Part shown: piece by piece, positions 281 to 62,067 of the stretch
How the letters are laid out: the number at the start of each line of letters is the position of its first letter
How positions within the stretch are numbered: position 1 is the stretch's first letter
Source of the DNA: a virus
DNA length: 64,000 bases
Reading direction: 5' to 3' (one strand)
IMG/VR virus record: IMGVR_UViG_3300002144_000620
Location: 62,001-126,000 of that record
Notes under the pieces: generated by a model
The model's input: only the letters and a program-made list of their open reading frames with translations
What the model was told of the DNA's origin: nothing
Databases searched by the model: none
Made by a program: the position numbers and the translations under genes

Positions 281-357
281 AAGAAAAGTTACAAAAGAAA
301 ATATATTATAGAGTACCTATATTAGTATTAATAATTAATTAAATTAATAATATATAT

Positions 358-453
358 TATATATAAGTACTATAGTATAGAGTACCTTGCTTAAGACCCT
401 TAACAAAAATAAACATTTGAAATGATAAAGTCAAGTTTTTATAAAAATAATTT
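358..453 (+). repeat. Direct repeat, copy 1
   Basis: The first 54 bp (358-411) match 524-577 with only two mismatches, including the invariant CCTTGCTTAAGACCCTTAAC. After a diverged ~15 bp, AAAGTCAAG and an A/T-rich tail match again. AAGTACT can pair with AGTA(C)CTT to form a small hairpin. Function unknown. Confidence 0.85.
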
Positions 454-1244: not shown

Positions 1245-1646
1245 TTAATCATTTAGTAGTTTACTATGTTTATCTATAAATTTATTAACCTTCTCAACCA
1301 AAATATCACCTTCCTTCATTTCATGTTCCCATATAATCAATAAAGTATAGTTATGGTCAAACTTAACTAGTTTAACTTTATATTGGTCATTCTTTAAATT
1401 ATTTCTCTGAAAAGTGTACTTAGCTTCTGGGTTATGTGTTTTACAGCAATGGTAAAAACAACCATGTGTTTCAATTATAATACCGTGATCTGGTAATAAA
1501 AAATCAAATTCTCTCTTTTTAAAAACAAAATGTTGTTCATACTTAATACCCAATTCATTAAGTATACCAGCAAACGCAACCTCTAATTTAGACGTTCCGT
1601 TCATTTTTTTTCTAACAGTACGCATTTTTACTTTCTTTTTAGCCAA
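1245..1646 (-). CDS. Vsr-like PD-(D/E)XK endonuclease, probably free-standing homing endonuclease
   Basis: The 133-residue product has a Vsr/EDxHD-type nuclease core: E22 in LEVAFAGIL, D48 in EFDFLLP, E59 and H61 in IIIETHGCFYH, then NNLKNDQYK and a final LLIIWEHEM. Vsr enzymes nick at mismatches; phage EDxHD relatives act as homing endonucleases. It is the only minus-strand gene in the window and lies between two tail genes, typical of a mobile free-standing endonuclease. The longest frame starts at TTG (1646); an ATG at codon 8 (1625) gives 126 residues and may be the true start. The N-terminus is Lys/Arg-rich. Family call firm; homing role inferred. Confidence 0.8.
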   Translation of the reverse strand: MAKKKVKMRTVRKKMNGTSKLEVAFAGILNELGIKYEQHFVFKKREFDFLLPDHGIIIETHGCFYHCCKTHNPEAKYTFQRNNLKNDQYKVKLVKFDHNYTLLIIWEHEMKEGDILVEKVNKFIDKHSKLLND

Positions 1647-3535: not shown

Positions 3536-6184
3536 ATGGTACAAGGTAACTTTGCATCTAAATTTCAAAAAGCTATCGATACTTACGATTCGTTAGTTAA
3601 ATCTGGTCAAATTAGTAACCAGACTAAGATATATAGTTTACAAAGTTCAATTAATAGTGCTGCCGAATATGCTTTAAACAAAAAAGAATCTTATCAATTA
3701 GACCTAAAAAATGAAACTATAGGTCAGTGGAGTAGAAGGGTATTTAATGAAAAAGCGGAGGAGGATAAAGTTAAATCAAATTTTAAACGTGACCAAAAAA
3801 TATTAACTAAACAAATTAACGATTACAAGAAAAAAGAGTTAAAAGCTCAAAAGTCTAATAATAAGAGTCAAGAAAAATTAATAAAGGAAAGAAGGACCCA
3901 ATTAGAGACCACTAAAAAAATGAAAGAAGCTGAATCAGAGGCTTTCAGTGCAACATCTAAAATAGCTGGTAAGGGTGGTGGTAATCCTTACATTGCTGCT
4001 ATATTAGTTGTTAGTGGTGCTATATTAAGCGCAGCAAAAAGTATTTTAGGTACTGCTGTGGGTTTACTAAAAAAATTAATACCGAAAAACTTTGATTTTT
4101 TGGCACCGTACAAATGGTTTTTAAAATTTCAAACCTTATCGGGTGATATATCGGTTAACGCTGGTTTAATAGCATCAGAATCAGCTAATTTTTTAGACAA
4201 CCTACCTATGATGATGCAGGATGTACTAGACGTTGGTGGTACATTAGAAGATATTAATAAAGTATTTAAAAAATTTAGTGAAGTAACTAATAAAAACAGG
4301 TTATTCACAAGTAAGGAGTATAAAGGTATATTAAATTTAGGTTTAGGTACATCACTTGGAGCTGAAGGTGCTGCTGATTTCGTTGGTAACTTTGAGAATA
4401 TGGGTTATTCAGTTGATAAAACATTAGAATTCACTGAATATGTTAGAGGTAAAGCAATGAGTATAAACCTTAACCAATCTAACATACTTAATAAGATTAA
4501 CCAATTAACCCTATCCTTAACAGGTTTTGGTATATCTATGGGTCTTAAAGGTATGGCTAAACTAGTAACAAAATCCGTTAAATTAAGATTTGATGTTGTT
4601 GGTTCGGTAAAAGCTTTTCAAGATGCATTTAAAGATCCAGAAGTAGCTGTTGAGGTTGCAGCCAAAGCTAAACTACTTGGTGGTAAATTCGCTTTTTATT
4701 TTGGTGACCCTTTTACTTTAATGGGTAAAAGTATATTAGAACCAGAAGAACTAACCGCTGATTTAATTGAAGCTTTAAAAGATAAAGCCTTTAAAGGTAA
4801 AAACGGTTTTGAAATCGCACCAGCTGATCGTGAAATGATTAGAGAGTTATCTAAAGCATTGGGTCAAGACCCTGAAAACATAATCACATTAGCTATCGAA
4901 CAAGGTAAGGATTTGGATAAAGTTAACGCACTTAGAAAACGAGGTATATTCGAGACTAATATGGATGAAGATAAAGCTGAGTTATTAAAAAATCTAATGA
5001 CATTAAACGAAGACGGTTCTTACAGTATACGATTATCAAATGGTGTTACACAAAGATTATCTGAGATACCTAGTAATGTAACTATATTTAAAACGTTACA
5101 ACAAGAGAGAAAAAATAACGAATCTGCACTATTAAGAAAATCGTTAGCTGAAAGAATAGGTATTGTTATCGATAGGTTTATGATTGGGTTTTCACAGGTA
5201 TTTGTTGAATTAAATAAATATTTCAGAGATTTTGATACCATAACAAATCTAGATAACACCGTTAAATCCATAAGCGATGGTATGGGTAAATTTTTAACAG
5301 ATAAATTTGATAGCGATTGGGGTGATATACTAAAAAATGGTTTAAAAACAGCTAACTTAATGATAGATAACCTATTATTAGTTTGGAACGACCCCAATAA
5401 AGGACTACCAGTTATTTTAGCCGATTCAATGGATATTATAAAAGATGCTTTAATGAAATATATGATCAAACCGTTAGAATTTTATAGCGGTAAACTAGTG
5501 TACGGAATAGGTAAAGGGCTTGATAAAAAAACTTTTGGTCTTTTCGGTAAAAGCATAATGCAATCTGGTTTAAATATGCAAAAAAGCGGTTTAGAGGGTT
5601 CTAGTACTACTTTTTATGAAAATAATGAAAATGGGTTAAGAACTCGTATCGACAATTACAACAAAAATTATGCTAATAATGATATATCATCAAACCTAAC
5701 AACTACGATAAGTAAACGAATACTTAAAAAAATACCTTTTATTGGGGCGGTTATAGGTACCGTGGAGGCGCTTGGTTACGTACTAGAAGGTAATTACGGT
5801 CAAGCTGGAATGGCGTTTGGGTCAGGTGTCTTAAGTACCGTACCAGGTCTTGGTACAGCCGCAAGTATTGGTCTTGACGCTATTAATATGGGTATTGATT
5901 CCCAAAAAGATTATAAGGTTCAGAATATCGAGAAAGCTAATGATTTAATTTACCATAGTAGCGGTTCGATAGAAAAAGGTGCCAAAGGGGACGCTAAATC
6001 ATATATAGATGAACTTGCTGGGGGTAAATCAAATAGTTACAGTAAAGCAAATAGTTTTAATCTGGTATTATCTGGTAAGATTATTAATAAATATAGAGAA
6101 GGTTTTTATGATAAAAACACTCATAATACTACCATAACTTCTTCTAAAATGGTATTAAAACAAATGATAGCTAATTTAGCTTAA
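3536..6184 (+). CDS. Tape-measure-like tail protein A
   Basis: An 882-residue protein starting MVQGNF. It has a charged helical N-terminal part (about 60-140, Lys/Glu-rich, coiled-coil-like), a hydrophobic segment NPYIAAILVVSGAILSAA near 150-170 followed by VGLLKKLIP, then a long mixed helical body. It is a divergent paralogue of the gene at 8276: both share M(V/A)QG(N/D)F, LK(N/S)ETIG, KNRLF, FGDPF, DRFxIG and a C-terminal GSIEKGAKGDAKSYIDE / KGSKGDAIAFIDE block. Position after tube and chaperone-like genes, size and membrane-like segments support a tape-measure role: setting tail length and perhaps entering the membrane on ejection. Family not certain. Its last ~95 codons are duplicated at 7925-8212. 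Confidence 0.7.
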   Translation: MVQGNFASKFQKAIDTYDSLVKSGQISNQTKIYSLQSSINSAAEYALNKKESYQLDLKNETIGQWSRRVFNEKAEEDKVKSNFKRDQKILTKQINDYKKKELKAQKSNNKSQEKLIKERRTQLETTKKMKEAESEAFSATSKIAGKGGGNPYIAAILVVSGAILSAAKSILGTAVGLLKKLIPKNFDFLAPYKWFLKFQTLSGDISVNAGLIASESANFLDNLPMMMQDVLDVGGTLEDINKVFKKFSEVTNKNRLFTSKEYKGILNLGLGTSLGAEGAADFVGNFENMGYSVDKTLEFTEYVRGKAMSINLNQSNILNKINQLTLSLTGFGISMGLKGMAKLVTKSVKLRFDVVGSVKAFQDAFKDPEVAVEVAAKAKLLGGKFAFYFGDPFTLMGKSILEPEELTADLIEALKDKAFKGKNGFEIAPADREMIRELSKALGQDPENIITLAIEQGKDLDKVNALRKRGIFETNMDEDKAELLKNLMTLNEDGSYSIRLSNGVTQRLSEIPSNVTIFKTLQQERKNNESALLRKSLAERIGIVIDRFMIGFSQVFVELNKYFRDFDTITNLDNTVKSISDGMGKFLTDKFDSDWGDILKNGLKTANLMIDNLLLVWNDPNKGLPVILADSMDIIKDALMKYMIKPLEFYSGKLVYGIGKGLDKKTFGLFGKSIMQSGLNMQKSGLEGSSTTFYENNENGLRTRIDNYNKNYANNDISSNLTTTISKRILKKIPFIGAVIGTVEALGYVLEGNYGQAGMAFGSGVLSTVPGLGTAASIGLDAINMGIDSQKDYKVQNIEKANDLIYHSSGSIEKGAKGDAKSYIDELAGGKSNSYSKANSFNLVLSGKIINKYREGFYDKNTHNTTITSSKMVLKQMIANLA

Positions 6185-7922
6185 TAATGAATATAAAAAC
6201 AATTTCTTTTGTATTTATAGTTAAGGAATATATAGTAAATTTAATATATGGCACAAGGTGATTTTTTTAGTGATTTAAGTAATGCGGCTGATAAGTTAAA
6301 TCAAGCTGCTAAAGACGGTGTGATCAATAACTCAACCCAAGAGCAACAGATGGAACGTATGTTAGAAATGTACGAAGCTATAAACGCTAAAAAAGCCGCT
6401 GGATTCAAATGGGATTTAAAATCAGAAACAATTGGTGCTAACATCAGACGCTGGGGTAAAGGAATGGTTGATGACGCCAACAAGCTAAAAAAAGCTAAAA
6501 AGGGTTTAGTGATACAACAAAAAAGTATTAATAAACTTAATGATCTTGAGCTTAAATTAATAAAAGAGGGTAAAAAAGAAACTGCTGAGTTAGTAAAAAA
6601 GAAGAAAGAACAAGCTGTATTAGAAAAAGAAATATCTCAAGTTAATCTTAATGTTGCCAAAAGTGCTAGTAGTAAACTAGGTAGCGTTATGGCTGGCTTT
6701 AGTAACTTCGGTAAAAGCGCTATGAACCTTTTTAGTCCACTAAGTGGTATTTTTAGTTTTATATTAGGTACGGTTTTCTCAATAGGTAAATCACTATTCA
6801 ACATATTATTACCAATAGAAAAAGCATGGAAAATGTTTCTCGAAATGCAGAAAGCTGTTGGAGGCCTATCTGCTGATATTGGTTTAACCAATAAAGAGTA
6901 CATGGGTCTATTAAGTAGAATGCCTATGTTATATAGCGATATTGCTGGATATGGTGGTAAAATAGAAGATATAGCAACTATTATCGGTACTTTTAGTAAA
7001 AATACTGGTAAAAACCGATTATTCTCAAACGAAGAAATTGAAGGTATTGTTAAATTAGGTTATAGTACTGGACTAGGCGTTGATGGTGTAACCGAAATGG
7101 TTGGTGAATTTGATAACTTAGGTTATTCATTAGAACAAACAATGAAAACAGCTGACAAGGGTAGAAAACTTGCCGCTAAATTCAGTATTAATCAAACTAA
7201 GTTACTCAAAACAACAACAGATGTTGTTAAAAATTTAACAGGAACAGCCTTTGGTAGAAGTGTTGAAGATTTAACTAAATTATCAGCTAAAGCACAATCA
7301 TTAAGGTTTAATTTAGCTGAGTCAATTAAATCTTTTAAAGATTCGTTCTTTAGCCCAGAAAAAGCTATTGAGGCGGCAGCTAAAATACAGGTACTAGGTG
7401 GTGAAATGGCGCAACAATTTGGGGACCCTTTCTCATTAATGTATGATTCAATGAATAACGCTGATGGCATGGCCGAGAAATTGATTAATAGTGCTAAAAA
7501 TTTGGCTACAAAAAATAAAAACAATGAATTTATAATACCACCAGCACAAAGACAAATATTAAGAGAACAAGCTGAAGCCTTAGGTCAAAATTATGATGAG
7601 ATTGTTAATGCTGGTATAGAGCAAGCTAGAACAGCCGATAAGTTAATATCGTTAAGTAAAGCATCTGGTTCATTAACCAATTTTAATGATGATGACCAAC
7701 AAGCGTTAGCTAATCTAATGACATTAGGTAAAAACGGTTACGAGATTAAAATGCCTAACGGTATTAGTAAATTAGTTAGTACCATAACCAGCGAAGATCA
7801 ATTAAAAAACATATTATCAGCTAGACAAGCTAATGAAAATGCAGCGCAAGAAAGACTAAACTTATCTGAAAGATTCAGTATTGTATTGGATAGATTCGCA
7901 ATAGGTTTAACACCCTTATTCG
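5895..7922 (+). repeat. Tandem duplication, copy 1 (2,028 bp)
   Basis: It spans the last ~96 codons of tape-measure A, the 63-bp gap with its TATTTATA motif, and the first ~558 codons of the tape-measure C reading frame. It is followed head-to-tail by copy 2 at a constant 2,028-bp offset. I saw nine differences, eight of them in the first 250 bp. Confidence 0.95.
6212..6219 (+). promoter_or_regulatory. TATTTATA motif before chimeric tape-measure gene
   Basis: It lies in the 63-bp gap after tape-measure A, 28 nt before the ATG, and is part of the duplicated segment. Confidence 0.5.
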
Positions 7923-8212
7923 TTGATTCCCAAAAAGATTATAAAGTTCAGAATATCGAGAAAGCTAATGATTTAATTTACCATAGTAGCGGTTCTATAG
8001 AAAAAGGCGCTAAAGGGGACGCTAAATCATATATAGATGAACTTGCTGGGGGTAAATCAAATAGTTACAGTAAAGCAAATAGTTTTAATCTAGTATTATC
8101 TGGTAAGATTATTAATAAATATAGAGAAGGTTTTTATGATAAAAACACTCACAATACCACCATAACTTCGTCTAAAATGGTATTAAAACAAATGATAGCT
8201 AATTTAGCTTAA
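6248..8212 (+). CDS. Chimeric tape-measure-like protein B (N-part of C fused to C-terminus of A)
   Basis: A 654-residue intact frame. Residues 1-559 equal the N-terminus of the protein at 8276, including the charged coiled-coil-like region, the hydrophobic segment (about 150-190) and the body up to DRFAIGLTPLFV. Residues 560-654 equal the last 95 residues of the protein at 3536. It therefore lacks the C-specific part (residues 560-933 of C). It arose at the junction of a 2,028-bp tandem duplication. The frame is open and has its own TATTTATA and leader, so it may be expressed as a shorter variant. A transient duplication or an assembly artefact from mixed strains remains possible. Confidence 0.75.
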   Translation: MAQGDFFSDLSNAADKLNQAAKDGVINNSTQEQQMERMLEMYEAINAKKAAGFKWDLKSETIGANIRRWGKGMVDDANKLKKAKKGLVIQQKSINKLNDLELKLIKEGKKETAELVKKKKEQAVLEKEISQVNLNVAKSASSKLGSVMAGFSNFGKSAMNLFSPLSGIFSFILGTVFSIGKSLFNILLPIEKAWKMFLEMQKAVGGLSADIGLTNKEYMGLLSRMPMLYSDIAGYGGKIEDIATIIGTFSKNTGKNRLFSNEEIEGIVKLGYSTGLGVDGVTEMVGEFDNLGYSLEQTMKTADKGRKLAAKFSINQTKLLKTTTDVVKNLTGTAFGRSVEDLTKLSAKAQSLRFNLAESIKSFKDSFFSPEKAIEAAAKIQVLGGEMAQQFGDPFSLMYDSMNNADGMAEKLINSAKNLATKNKNNEFIIPPAQRQILREQAEALGQNYDEIVNAGIEQARTADKLISLSKASGSLTNFNDDDQQALANLMTLGKNGYEIKMPNGISKLVSTITSEDQLKNILSARQANENAAQERLNLSERFSIVLDRFAIGLTPLFVDSQKDYKVQNIEKANDLIYHSSGSIEKGAKGDAKSYIDELAGGKSNSYSKANSFNLVLSGKIINKYREGFYDKNTHNTTITSSKMVLKQMIANLA

Positions 8213-9950
8213 TAATGAATATAAAAACAATTTCTTTTGTATTTATAGTTAAGGAATATATAGTAAATTTAATATATGGCACAAGGTGATTTTTTTAGTG
8301 ATTTAAGTAATGCGGCTGATAAGTTAAATCAAGCTGCTAAAGACGGTGTGATCAATAACTCAACCCAAGAGCAACAGATGGAACGTATGTTAGAAATGTA
8401 CGAAGCTATAAACGCTAAAAAAGCCGCTGGATTCAAATGGGATTTAAAATCAGAAACAATTGGTGCTAACATCAGACGCTGGGGTAAAGGAATGGTTGAT
8501 GACGCCAACAAGCTAAAAAAAGCTAAAAAGGGTTTAGTGATACAACAAAAAAGTATTAATAAACTTAATGATCTTGAGCTTAAATTAATAAAAGAGGGTA
8601 AAAAAGAAACTGCTGAGTTAGTAAAAAAGAAGAAAGAACAAGCTGTATTAGAAAAAGAAATATCTCAAGTTAATCTTAATGTTGCCAAAAGTGCTAGTAG
8701 TAAACTAGGTAGCGTTATGGCTGGCTTTAGTAACTTCGGTAAAAGCGCTATGAACCTTTTTAGTCCACTAAGTGGTATTTTTAGTTTTATATTAGGTACG
8801 GTTTTCTCAATAGGTAAATCACTATTCAACATATTATTACCAATAGAAAAAGCATGGAAAATGTTTCTCGAAATGCAGAAAGCTGTTGGAGGCCTATCTG
8901 CTGATATTGGTTTAACCAATAAAGAGTACATGGGTCTATTAAGTAGAATGCCTATGTTATATAGCGATATTGCTGGATATGGTGGTAAAATAGAAGATAT
9001 AGCAACTATTATCGGTACTTTTAGTAAAAATACTGGTAAAAACCGATTATTCTCAAACGAAGAAATTGAAGGTATTGTTAAATTAGGTTATAGTACTGGA
9101 CTAGGTGTTGATGGTGTAACCGAAATGGTTGGTGAATTTGATAACTTAGGTTATTCATTAGAACAAACAATGAAAACAGCTGACAAGGGTAGAAAACTTG
9201 CCGCTAAATTCAGTATTAATCAAACTAAGTTACTCAAAACAACAACAGATGTTGTTAAAAATTTAACAGGAACAGCCTTTGGTAGAAGTGTTGAAGATTT
9301 AACTAAATTATCAGCTAAAGCACAATCATTAAGGTTTAATTTAGCTGAGTCAATTAAATCTTTTAAAGATTCGTTCTTTAGCCCAGAAAAAGCTATTGAG
9401 GCGGCAGCTAAAATACAGGTACTAGGTGGTGAAATGGCGCAACAATTTGGGGACCCTTTCTCATTAATGTATGATTCAATGAATAACGCTGATGGCATGG
9501 CCGAGAAATTGATTAATAGTGCTAAAAATTTGGCTACAAAAAATAAAAACAATGAATTTATAATACCACCAGCACAAAGACAAATATTAAGAGAACAAGC
9601 TGAAGCCTTAGGTCAAAATTATGATGAGATTGTTAATGCTGGTATAGAGCAAGCTAGAACAGCCGATAAGTTAATATCGTTAAGTAAAGCATCTGGTTCA
9701 TTAACCAATTTTAATGATGATGACCAACAAGCGTTAGCTAATCTAATGACATTAGGTAAAAACGGTTACGAGATTAAAATGCCTAACGGTATTAGTAAAT
9801 TAGTTAGTACCATAACCAGCGAAGATCAATTAAAAAACATATTATCAGCTAGACAAGCTAATGAAAATGCAGCGCAAGAAAGACTAAACTTATCTGAAAG
9901 ATTCAGTATTGTATTGGATAGATTCGCAATAGGTTTAACACCCTTATTCG
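7923..9950 (+). repeat. Tandem duplication, copy 2 (2,028 bp)
   Basis: Second copy. The boundary with copy 1 shows 2-bp microhomology (TT at 5895-5896, 7923-7924 and 9951-9952). Its length is divisible by three, so the junction is in frame and makes a chimeric gene. Confidence 0.95.
8240..8247 (+). promoter_or_regulatory. TATTTATA motif before tape-measure C
   Basis: Duplicate of the site at 6212, again 28 nt before the ATG. Confidence 0.5.
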
Positions 9951-11077
9951 TTAAATTAAATGAGTTTTTAGCTGATACAGGTACCCTACAAAAAATAGAG
10001 GATTTAGGTAGAGCAATATCAACACAAATGATACCATTTATTGAAGGTATTTTTACACCAGGAGGTACTGTTGATACGGGTTTAAGGTTTTTCTTAAACG
10101 ATTTTGATAAATTTTTAGTTGATGCTAAAAAAATGATGGATGGTAAGGGTGACTTCTTTACTAAAATAAAAGGTGTGTTTACAACAATGGTTAAATTTGT
10201 AGTGGACACAATATTACCATACGTACAGTATATATTTGGTAATATACTGACAGCAATGAAAGATATACCAGGTATTGGAGATGCTATGAATGTCGCTGGT
10301 CAACAACTTATAGCCAAATCATTCCAAGTTGGAAAAGATGCTGAAGGGAAACCAACTTACAATAAAGGTACTGTCGGAATGGCTGGAGGATCTACAGAAG
10401 CTAACAAACTAATAGATGTGGCTAAAAAAAATCTAACCGAATCAGAGAGTAGTAATAATTTTTTTACCAGAGCTGGTAGTTCAATTTTAAATTTACTTGA
10501 AGGTACAGCTAACAGTATAGTGGCTGGAGGTGGTGAGTATATGAATGCCGTTTACGGAACAGCCTTCGATACTGAAGGTGCTCAAAGCGCAGCTAGAATA
10601 GCATTGGAATTATCTGGAGCTCAAATTGTCGATGCTTTTGGTGGTGTTTTTTCTAAAGGTTTGGATAAAAATTCATTTGAGATGGACGCCAGAGATAGGA
10701 TGAGAGTTGACGAAGGGTATAATGCGTCAGCAGATGACCACCTTAAACACATAGGTGTTCAAGATGCTATGCTTTATTCCGATGGTAGATTAATTAAAGG
10801 TAGTAAAGGTGATGCTATTGCTTTTATAGACGAAATGGCTTACGGTAAAGCACATAGTCAATCTTCTAACAATAATTCATCAACAATGACTGTTAACGTA
10901 TCTGGTACTATCGAACACGATACACCTAATGGCACAAAAACTATAACAGCTAAACAATTATACGATTCAGATCCACAAATGTTTGGTGAGTTTATCTCAT
11001 CAACAATAGCTAAACGTGATTATGGTAGTGGTAATTATATCGTTGATTTTGGTGTAACACCTGTCAATGATATATGA
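8276..11077 (+). CDS. Tape-measure-like tail protein C
   Basis: A 933-residue protein starting MAQGDF, paralogous to the gene at 3536. Lys/Glu-rich helical N-terminal region (about 60-145); hydrophobic, glycine-spaced segment with FSFILGTVFSIGKSLF near 165-190; a long helical body; further weakly hydrophobic helices (about 640-680 and 735-760); then a Ser/Asn-rich linker and a beta-like end TVNVSGTIEHD. A shared KGSKGDAIAFIDE block lies near 840-855. Tape-measure function is inferred from position and architecture; no lytic motif was noticed. It is followed by 31 bp and the giant baseplate gene, which has its own TATTTATA. Its first ~558 codons are repeated almost perfectly at 6248. Confidence 0.75.
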   Translation: MAQGDFFSDLSNAADKLNQAAKDGVINNSTQEQQMERMLEMYEAINAKKAAGFKWDLKSETIGANIRRWGKGMVDDANKLKKAKKGLVIQQKSINKLNDLELKLIKEGKKETAELVKKKKEQAVLEKEISQVNLNVAKSASSKLGSVMAGFSNFGKSAMNLFSPLSGIFSFILGTVFSIGKSLFNILLPIEKAWKMFLEMQKAVGGLSADIGLTNKEYMGLLSRMPMLYSDIAGYGGKIEDIATIIGTFSKNTGKNRLFSNEEIEGIVKLGYSTGLGVDGVTEMVGEFDNLGYSLEQTMKTADKGRKLAAKFSINQTKLLKTTTDVVKNLTGTAFGRSVEDLTKLSAKAQSLRFNLAESIKSFKDSFFSPEKAIEAAAKIQVLGGEMAQQFGDPFSLMYDSMNNADGMAEKLINSAKNLATKNKNNEFIIPPAQRQILREQAEALGQNYDEIVNAGIEQARTADKLISLSKASGSLTNFNDDDQQALANLMTLGKNGYEIKMPNGISKLVSTITSEDQLKNILSARQANENAAQERLNLSERFSIVLDRFAIGLTPLFVKLNEFLADTGTLQKIEDLGRAISTQMIPFIEGIFTPGGTVDTGLRFFLNDFDKFLVDAKKMMDGKGDFFTKIKGVFTTMVKFVVDTILPYVQYIFGNILTAMKDIPGIGDAMNVAGQQLIAKSFQVGKDAEGKPTYNKGTVGMAGGSTEANKLIDVAKKNLTESESSNNFFTRAGSSILNLLEGTANSIVAGGGEYMNAVYGTAFDTEGAQSAARIALELSGAQIVDAFGGVFSKGLDKNSFEMDARDRMRVDEGYNASADDHLKHIGVQDAMLYSDGRLIKGSKGDAIAFIDEMAYGKAHSQSSNNNSSTMTVNVSGTIEHDTPNGTKTITAKQLYDSDPQMFGEFISSTIAKRDYGSGNYIVDFGVTPVNDI

Positions 11078-11108: not shown

Positions 11109-14100
11109 ATGAGTCTTAATAGTATTTCAGAAGAATTCAGAAATGAAATTCTAAATTTAAACTTACAGTCACCACCTGACATTGTAACTGGTTTAGTTAA
11201 CTTAACTAATTCGGTAACAATTAATGCATACCTAAGTTCTTTAGGTCAATACGCTGTTATACACGATTATAAAGTACTTAATCCAGGTGATGTTGATACT
11301 GATGGTATACCAACAAGAAACGCTAATTTCAGTAGAACATTAAACACGCCAACTGATATATCAAATGGTTTAAGTGATTTAACCTCTAACCAGCAATATG
11401 TTGCTAATATAGTTAATAGTAAGGGTCAATTAACTGTTATAAATGATTACGCAAACACTAATCCTAGTGATGTTTTAACAGAAGCTGTAACACCTAGAAC
11501 AACCGATATATTAAAAAACTTAAATACACCAATAGATATTACAACAGGTCTAAATGACTTATCACCAAATGCCGCTATAGCGTCACAGTATTTATCTGGT
11601 AGAGGTTCGTTTAGTATTATAAACGATTTTAACGTAATTAATCCTGGTGACGTATTAACAGACGCTATAGCACCAAGAAATTTAGATATAGCAAAAAACT
11701 TAAACACACCAATAGATATCACAACAGGTATAAATGATTTATCACCAAATGGCACTATAGCATCACAATATTTATCAGGTAGAGGCTCATTTAGTATTAT
11801 AAACGATTTTAACGTAATTAATCCTGGTGATGTATTAACAGACGCTATAGCACCAAGAACATTAGATTTCTCTAGAAACCTAAATACACCAACAGACATA
11901 ACAGCTGGTGTAAACGATTTAACACCAAACACATTACTAGCGGCCCAATATTTATCAGGCAGAGGTTCATTTAGTGTTATAAACGATTTTATTGTTAATA
12001 ACCCTGGAGATGTATTAACAGACGCTGTAACACCAAGAACTTTAAACTTCTTACAAACACTTAATACACCTACCGATATAACAACAGGTGTAAATACACT
12101 AAGCGGTGCTTATGCCGCCCAATACTTATCTGGAAAAGGAGCGTTCACTGCTATAAACACATTTCCAAATGTTAATCCTGGTGATGTATTAACAGATGCA
12201 GTAACACCAAGAAATTTAAACTTTTCTCACGGACTAAATACACCAACCGACATCACAACAGGTATAAACACCTTAAGTGGTGCGTTTGCAGCACAATACT
12301 TATCTGGACGAGGAGCGTTTACAGTTATTAACGATTACATTAATACTAATCCAGGTGACGTTGTTAACGCAGCCACAGCACCTAGAGCATTAAACTTTTC
12401 ACATACTTTAAACACACCTTTAGATATAACAGTAGGTGTAAATACCTTAAGTGGTTCATTTGCAGCCCAATACTTATCAGGTAAAGGTTTAGGTACAGTA
12501 ATTAACGATTTCATTAATGTAAACCCTGGTGATACCGTAACGGACGCATTAGTACCCAGAACATTAAATTTAAATAAAAACCTTAATACACCTCTAGATA
12601 TCACAACAGGGTTACTTAACTTAAGTGGTTCATTTGCAGCACAATATTTAGCTGGTAGAGGTTTTGATACGATAGTAAATGATTTTAACGTAATTAATCC
12701 AGGTGATGTTGAAACAGAAGCCCTATTACCAAGAACGTTAAATTTAAGTATGACTCTAACAACACCTTTAGATATTACAACAGGTATAGGTACTTTAACA
12801 GCTAACGGTACTTTAACAGCACAATATTTAGCTGGTAGAGGTACACCAACAGTAATAAACGTTTTACCGAATGTAAATCCTGGTGATGTTCAAACTAATG
12901 CTGGACCATTGAGAATAAGTTTATTTTCTTTAAATCTGGTACCAGACCCTAATGACGCAACAGATTCATACACTTTAGCGAATCCAGGTACAGTAGCAAT
13001 CGGATCTGATACGATAATAAATAATTTTACTGTAAATAACCAAGAGGAATTAACACCTTTACAATTACAGTACTTAAATGCTAATTCTAAAAATCTATAC
13101 CAGCCAGAAAATCCAGTTGTTTACGATATATTAGCTGATTTAATATTAAATCAATCACCCAATACACAGCAAAATCCTTATGTAACTGAAGATATGTTAA
13201 AAAACGCTGACCCAACTCAATTGGTTTTAGCTGATTTCCTTAACTTACCAACAGCTTCAACACCTCTAAGCGTTTTACTCGGTACCGATTTAAATTTAGC
13301 TAATTTATTAACCGAACCTGGTATAAAAAATGATACTCTATTAGCTCAAATAGGTGCTTTAGAGCTCAAGTTTCATTTAGAAGCTAGGCTTGCCGCTAAA
13401 TTAGCTTCGGAGACCTTAGGTTGGACTACAATCGATGATATGTTAACTAACCCATTAAAGATAGCAGAAGCGCTTAAAAACCCATCTTCTGTCCTTGAAA
13501 GAGGTAATGCTGATATAACAACATTTAAAGGTGGTTTAGGTAAGTTAGCTAGTTTTATTTCTGACGTTAGCGGTTTAGGTGGTTTATCTTCCGCATTCTT
13601 TAAAGACGATTCAGTTTTATTAAAACCAACTGGAGTCGAAGATTATGATTCAGACCAAAAGTTAAGGAATAGAGATATCGATAGATTGGAAGAAACTGGT
13701 AAAGGTCAAAGATTCATGGCTTTTTCTAATTTAACGTTAAATAAATATATACCAGACTATGTCAGCCAATTAACAAACATTAGTGGTAGTAGAACATACA
13801 AAAGATTAAGAAAAGGACAAGGTGAAAACCATGAAGAAGACAAATCGTATTTAGGTAATGCCACCCAAAGAATATTCGACCTACTTACAGATGGGTCTGG
13901 TAATCAGGTTAAACCAACCGCTGAGATAACTAAACTTTTAATAGAAAATAACAAATATTCAGAACCTGGTGTTGAAAATGTATCATCATACGGATCGTTA
14001 CAAACATCTTTTATATGGCGAGGCACTACAGAAGAAAGATACTGGAACCCTTTAACAGGTGGATATACAAAAGATAACAAAAATGACGATAGAGCTACTT

Positions 14101-61024: not shown

Positions 61025-62067
61025 TGGCTAAACAATACAACCTTAAAGATATTAATGGGTTACACCTTAAGTCACCTTATGATTATAATTCATATAACAC
61101 TAATGGTGTTGACGCTCTAATAGAGAATTTTGATTTTTACCCGTTAAAAACTAGTGATATTAGTAACTTTATTTTTATTAACGGATCGTACAGAAATGTT
61201 TTGGAAACATCAGAATACCATAATAAAATTATGGGTAACTCTTTTATTGGTGACAATTCTTATACAAACAAAACACACGATTTAACGTACACACAAATTA
61301 AAAAAACTAAAGAGTTAGTTAAAGGTGAAAAGTATTACGTTAAATTCGATTTTTATTTCAATTTTGATGGTGACGCTTACGGGTTCGATATAGGGTCAAC
61401 TGGGTATACAATAAACACAGATTTATATGTTGTATTAGGTAATACCAAAAGAAAACTTAAGCTATCAAATCTATACATATATGATTTTGACAACCCAACG
61501 TATTCAAACACAACAGACAACCCAATAGATGAGGGTTATAAAGACATTGAGTCTGGCAACAACATATACTCAAGTAACGTTAATATCACGAGTGACACTA
61601 TAAATATGTCTTATGTACCAGATAATAAAACGTATTCCGTGTATTATAAAGGTGTTGGTACAGGGTTAAATCCTGTTGTAACATCAAATGTTTCGTATAT
61701 TGAAGCTAATAGTTATTCAGCCAACTACGGAACCCAAGTTTATATGAGCGTATCTTCTGATCTAGCTTATGCGTTAACATCGTTCAACGTACCAACCTTT
61801 ACTTCATCCGCAAACGGTATGGTTATAGAGCTATTGGAAAATCAAGGATACGGTAGCCCATTTAACGTTATGGACGGTGGTTACTTATTTAAAGTTACTG
61901 CTGAATTAGATACAACATCGATGGCCGAGTTTGACGCTAACATATGTAAGGGTAATAAAGATTTTAAAATAATTGTTGATTATAACGGCACTTTCTCACA
62001 AACAATAATAACTTATGAGGACATAGCTTACAGTGTAATAGTAGGTAATGAAAATCAACAAGCTTAA
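61024..62067 (+). CDS. Hypothetical structural protein, beta-rich
   Basis: 347 residues, unrecognised. N-terminus YNLKDINGLHLKSPYDYNSYNTNG; then Tyr/Asn/Ser-rich beta segments (KYYVKFDFYFNFDGDAYGFDIGSTGYTINTDLYVVLGN near 100-140), and a possible Ig-like middle: KTYSVYYKGVGTGLNPVVTSNVSYIEANSYSANYGTQVYMSVSSDLAYALTSFNVP. The C-terminal VKTAELDTTS-like part (FKVTAELDTTSMAEFDANI) ends in a further strand pair. No motif for catalysis. It shares its first base with the previous stop. Likely part of a fibre or peripheral baseplate set together with its LTxxGR neighbours. Confidence 0.65.
   Translation: MAKQYNLKDINGLHLKSPYDYNSYNTNGVDALIENFDFYPLKTSDISNFIFINGSYRNVLETSEYHNKIMGNSFIGDNSYTNKTHDLTYTQIKKTKELVKGEKYYVKFDFYFNFDGDAYGFDIGSTGYTINTDLYVVLGNTKRKLKLSNLYIYDFDNPTYSNTTDNPIDEGYKDIESGNNIYSSNVNITSDTINMSYVPDNKTYSVYYKGVGTGLNPVVTSNVSYIEANSYSANYGTQVYMSVSSDLAYALTSFNVPTFTSSANGMVIELLENQGYGSPFNVMDGGYLFKVTAELDTTSMAEFDANICKGNKDFKIIVDYNGTFSQTIITYEDIAYSVIVGNENQQA

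Follow-up and report, generated by a model that had tools for sequence, protein, structure and literature searches.

A stretch of 64,000 nucleotides from an uncultured virus (IMG/VR record IMGVR_UViG_3300002144_000620, positions 62,001 to 126,000; hereafter, the window) carries a repeat that, as read from its sequence, is a tandem duplication within the tail operon of a T4-like phage. Genes A and B remain whole, and a fused gene, B′, is added. The two copies of the repeat differ at nine positions, nearly all of them in the part derived from the end of gene A (the A tail). With slightly better than even confidence, we read this as a young duplication in which each A tail is the allele of a different strain.

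Genes A, B, and B′ in the Tail Region

The genes concerned are as follows.

3536–6184, + strand: gene A, 882 aa, in tape-measure position; its last 95 codons are the A tail, which opens repeat copy 1 (open reading frame, synteny)
6248–8212, + strand: fused gene B′, 654 aa, made of B residues 1–559 followed by the A tail (open reading frame)
8276–11077, + strand: gene B, 933 aa, an intact paralogue of A (open reading frame, BLASTP)

A and B share 30% identity over 887 aligned positions (BLASTP). In the Flavobacterium phage immuto (NC_055915), the genes for sheath, tube, and baseplate hub are followed by an annotated tail tape measure protein, and since this order matches that of the window, A and B occupy the expected tape-measure position. 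The comparison with the immuto tape measure protein was made with B and gave no homology (BLASTP E 0.004 over 37 residues, hhalign probability 7.6), so that the placement of A is one of synteny. Neither A nor B matched a tape measure family in PHROG or Pfam. The neighboring genes encode a T4-like tail tube protein (PHROG, 1.3e-27) and a T4-type baseplate protein (PF12322; Pfam, 4.5e-9), and further T4-type families, Portal_T4 (2.5e-75) and Terminase_6N (2.8e-11), are found elsewhere in the contig. The AlphaFold2 model of B has a mean pLDDT of 49. No relatives of B were found in annotated phages or in bacterial genomes, and a search with A alone returned no relative.

Other repeats occur in the same contig. 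A 97-nt direct repeat (window 357–453 and 523–619, 87% identical) lies in the gap before the tube gene, and a 2,923-aa open reading frame opens with about ten tandem units of 174–180 bp (window 11279–12915). Outside the window, the contig ends (contig positions 1–1728 and 149325–153961; L019, L024) both fall within genes containing short repeats, collagen-like or otherwise. Assembly therefore probably stopped within repeats, and in the assembly graph the genome may form a circle.

The Repeat and Its Joint

Base-by-base comparison shows that positions 5895–7924 recur at 7923–9952 as a head-to-tail direct repeat of 2,030 bp, with a shift of 2028, no indel, and 99.557% identity between the copies. 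The repeat runs from codon 787–788 of A through codon 559 of B.

5895–7924, + strand: repeat copy 1, consisting of the A tail, the A/B spacer, and B codons 1–559 (base-by-base comparison)
7923–9952, + strand: repeat copy 2; bases 7923–7924 are common to both copies (base-by-base comparison)
7923–7924, + strand: novel joint with the 2-bp microhomology TT, connecting B codon 559 in frame to the A tail (base-by-base comparison)
6185–6247, + strand: A/B spacer, copy 1, carrying TATTTATAGTTAA 24–36 bases upstream of the B′ start (comparison with the spacers of relatives)
8213–8275, + strand: A/B spacer, copy 2, identical to copy 1 (spacer comparison)

The A/B spacer is largely conserved in the six relatives compared, though their proteins have diverged considerably. 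The motif TATTTATA-N-TTAA has three sites on the + strand of the window (651, 6212, and 8240), each 24 to 42 bases upstream of an ATG (those of the tube gene, B′, and B), and two more matches on the – strand within genes. This motif could be a promoter.

The joint is internal to the contig, and N bases are absent from both the window and the remaining contig. No other long near-identical repeat was found in the 153,961-bp contig, and a 31-mer spanning the joint was absent from viral_contigs. Microhomology of at least 2 bases is expected at 19.8% of random A–B joins, so the 2 bp at the joint, though compatible with joining at short homology, do not exceed chance.

It was also considered whether a linear genome with terminal repeats had been joined at its ends to give the repeat. 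This is unlikely given the T4-type terminase and portal and the relatives that are continuous through the region. Phages with such families are expected to package their DNA by the headful mechanism, with no fixed genome ends.

Distribution of the Differences between the Copies

A preliminary description of the window had reported nine differences, all synonymous and mostly clustered at the start of the repeat. The alignment bears this out in every detail: the copies differ at 5917, 5968, 5980, 5983, 6064, 6124, 6130, 6142, and 7078 (each with its partner at +2028), and all nine are silent third-codon changes, affecting K794, S811, G815, A816, L843, H863, T865, and S869 of A and G277 of B.

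5917–6142, + strand: eight silent differences, dS 0.16 (copy-to-copy comparison)
7078, + strand: ninth difference, GGC/GGT, in G277 of B′ and B (partner 9106)
6142–6209, + strand: likelihood support interval for the drop in divergence (two-rate model)

Eight of the nine fall within the first 248 bp of the repeat. The probability of finding at least eight of nine in the 290-bp A tail is 1.4e-6, and that of all nine being silent under random change is about 6e-7 to 7e-6. Between the copies, the A tail has a dS of 0.16 and a dN of 0, compared with 0.003 and 0 for the B part (NG86), where a single difference occurs in 1,782 bp (6143–7924), flanked by 935 bp of uninterrupted identity before 7078 and 846 bp after it. 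The preliminary description had suggested testing for a recombination breakpoint near 6150; a two-rate likelihood model places the best change point at 6142 (support 6142–6209), at the A/B gene boundary, and none of 2,000 permutations with uniform scatter matched the observed likelihood. The support interval takes in the final 14 codons of A, counting the stop codon, together with the start of the A/B spacer. Thus, dS drops more than 50-fold beside a spacer that is conserved among relatives.

Two artifacts can be set aside. Random sequencing errors are strongly contradicted by the fact that all nine differences are silent and in third-codon positions. Collapse of the B part by bubble popping in a short-read assembler was rejected by reasoning on the density of differences: at that of the A tail, about one difference per 31 bp, the B copies would have stayed on separate paths throughout, so the B part must have diverged little in reality. 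As to which A tail is the ancestral one, relatives mostly carry codons for other amino acids at the eight sites and do not decide the matter, and codon rarity at these sites gave no direction.

A tract that looks homogenized adjoins a diverged one at 6142–6209, and exchange between strains yields the same pattern. The preliminary description had offered both possibilities, namely, homogenization of the C-part by recombination or an A tail derived from a related strain. In the first case, an old duplication would have undergone partial gene conversion, by which the B part was homogenized and the A tail, at the edge, escaped. We regard this as improbable. The sharp change point, with its diverged edge and identical core, is what such conversion would leave behind, and recombination does occur in phages of this group. 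However, the duplication would have to predate a dS of 0.16, and, as described below, the relatives carry no trace of it. Conversion would also demand strong constraint on an A tail that evolves fast elsewhere. Moreover, direct repeats of 2 kb are expected to be lost under headful packaging, an expectation that we derive from the part of PMC9391042 available to us.

The Region in Related Contigs

Scanning viral_contigs twice, with B and its alignment as queries, yielded 20 distinct contigs of relatives. They include near-identical copies and represent about eleven lineages by alignment count. In all 19 that show both genes, A is followed directly by B, both in single copy, and in none of these 19 does B′ lie between them; the twentieth (L010) begins at the end of A and shows B only. 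Among the 12 records in which B′ was sought, it was present only in the window's own record. A further feature of the region, a 133-aa open reading frame on the opposite strand between the tube and hub genes (window 1245–1646, – strand), is kept in 19 of the 20 contigs at 67–82% identity and resembles a Vsr mismatch endonuclease, with a Pfam score (4.8e-5) below the curated cut-off.

The single-copy arrangement in 19 of 19 relatives weighs against the old duplication required by gene conversion, and it is equally what would be expected if the repeat had been made by the assembly. Contigs of two co-existing strains overlapping by 2,030 bp could have been placed end to end, or a chimeric molecule could have been assembled. 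We hold such a join to be a real but clearly less probable explanation than a true duplication with strain alleles. The differences between the copies are of the kind expected between two strains, the source of the contig is a virus collection record, and in one relative, strain-specific clusters of differences are found at contig ends (L028). In addition, assemblers are known to confuse tandem with haplotypic duplications at contig ends, as described for diploid genomes in the part of PMC10462168 available to us. The position of the joint speaks against this explanation, as it sits inside the contig. It is also free of N, and its overlap is limited to 2 bases, for which an overlap or k-mer assembler would presumably need spanning reads. 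Furthermore, it is in frame, which a random join would be in one case out of three, and the contig contains no second long near-identical repeat.

Variation among Strains and Sister Lineages

One relative is represented by four near-identical contigs (L026, L027, L028, and L037), which allow strain-level variation to be compared with that between the repeat copies. Each pair differs at 7 or 8 sites across A and B. The variable codons comprise 13 silent changes and 1 replacement, a ratio indistinguishable from the 9:0 between the copies (Fisher p 1.0). Over 12.2 kb, the differences are clumped (p < 0.05) in five of the six pairs, which are not independent; in three of the five, the clumping includes a cluster located where contig L028 ends. 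The last 150 bases of L028 show twelve differences from its sister contigs, as if running into the allele of another strain. Judging from these contigs, silent and patchy differences are what strains of this phage group ordinarily show. As strain variants in a relative are nearly all silent and mostly clumped, an origin of the two A tails from different strains is the better supported of the two possibilities first raised, while homogenization of the C-part loses ground, for the 19 relatives show no trace of an old duplication.

Mosaics between sister lineages point the same way. L007 and L016 share a near-identical block from about A421 to about A780, flanked by sequence with a pS of about 0.5, and their A tails are diverged again. 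The block is a recombination mosaic and shows that sequence is exchanged within gene A, with one boundary close to the A tail. As between the repeat copies, synonymous divergence changes abruptly near a gene boundary; the mosaic involves two genomes, whereas in the window the contrast is between two copies in one contig.

One comparison counts against the strain-allele reading. Between the A tails of L007 and L011 and of L007 and L016, at a dS near 0.25, the ratios of replacements to silent changes are 15:11 and 13.5:10.5, against 0:8 between the repeat copies (Fisher p 0.0045 to 0.01), which is unusual for plain divergence between lineages. Constraint on the A tail may be stronger here than in the sister lineages, or the divergence of the two strains may resemble the 13:1 pattern of closer strains.

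The same comparison is an argument for B′ being a maintained third member of the A/B family, combining the N-terminal part of B with the A tail, in which selection has held the tail protein identical as its DNA drifted. The tail has 8 silent changes and no replacement, though it gains replacements readily between sister lineages; B′ also has an intact frame and its own spacer and motif. Nonetheless, we consider this very unlikely. A tandem duplication running from inside A to inside B keeps A and B intact and, when in frame, yields B′ for free, no B′ was found in the 19 relatives, and variants at the strain level are silent anyway (13:1). The preliminary description had taken the silence of all nine differences as a sign that both copies have been selected as protein. 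This conclusion does not follow, even with the 0:8 ratio in its favor: if the differences already existed in the normal A genes of two strains when the copies came together, their silence is uninformative about B′.

A Proposed Young Duplication Carrying Strain Alleles

In the reading that we favor, a recent head-to-tail duplication of 2,028 bp would have arisen in a T4-like phage by joining at 2 bp of microhomology, so that codon 559 of B became fused to the 95-codon A tail. All eight differences of the cluster would predate the duplication, being synonymous variants by which the A genes of two strains already differed. Two routes could have brought them together. Genomes of two strains sharing a cell may have undergone unequal exchange, one strain supplying the left copy and the other the right copy. 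Alternatively, the duplication may have occurred within one genome, and an ordinary crossover at or close to the conserved A/B spacer may later have replaced the 3′ end of the copy-1 gene A with the allele of another strain. By either route, the single difference in the B part would reflect how long ago the duplication, or the last exchange, truly took place, which would be very recently. We infer that virions carry the joint and that the donor genomes belonged to strains of this same phage. No second contig of the phage, in which the two strain alleles might be seen apart, was found by the search with A or by that with the joint 31-mer. An old duplication followed by homogenization is unneeded to explain the pattern.

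Known systems offer partial parallels. Tandem amplifications in T4 arise at homologies of 2–10 bp, according to the part of PMC9391042 available to us. The dmd-tifA and earlier T4 amplifications described there share with the window a head-to-tail repeat, a joint of a few bases, and a single-copy parent. Unlike them, as far as that text goes, the window has one extra copy, involves tail genes, carries two sets of silent alleles, has no known selection behind it, and is known from sequence alone. The haplotypic false duplications of PMC10462168, again in the portion at hand, likewise consist of near-identical tandem copies whose differences resemble strain alleles; by contrast, the joint in the window lies inside a long contig, is gapless and in frame, and has a 2-base overlap. 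Literature on duplicated or double tape measure proteins, on chimeric phage contigs, on conversion in phage duplicates, and on recombination in viral populations contributed nothing to this reading.

Conclusion

Clustered and wholly silent differences between duplicates can follow from recombination between strains or from the mixing of strains in an assembly. Such a pattern needs no clock, no conversion, and no selection on the duplicate, and a duplication carrying strain alleles would be a mostly ordinary event. If the joint is real, the window would present a young case in which tandem duplication has given an uncultured phage a fused tail gene.
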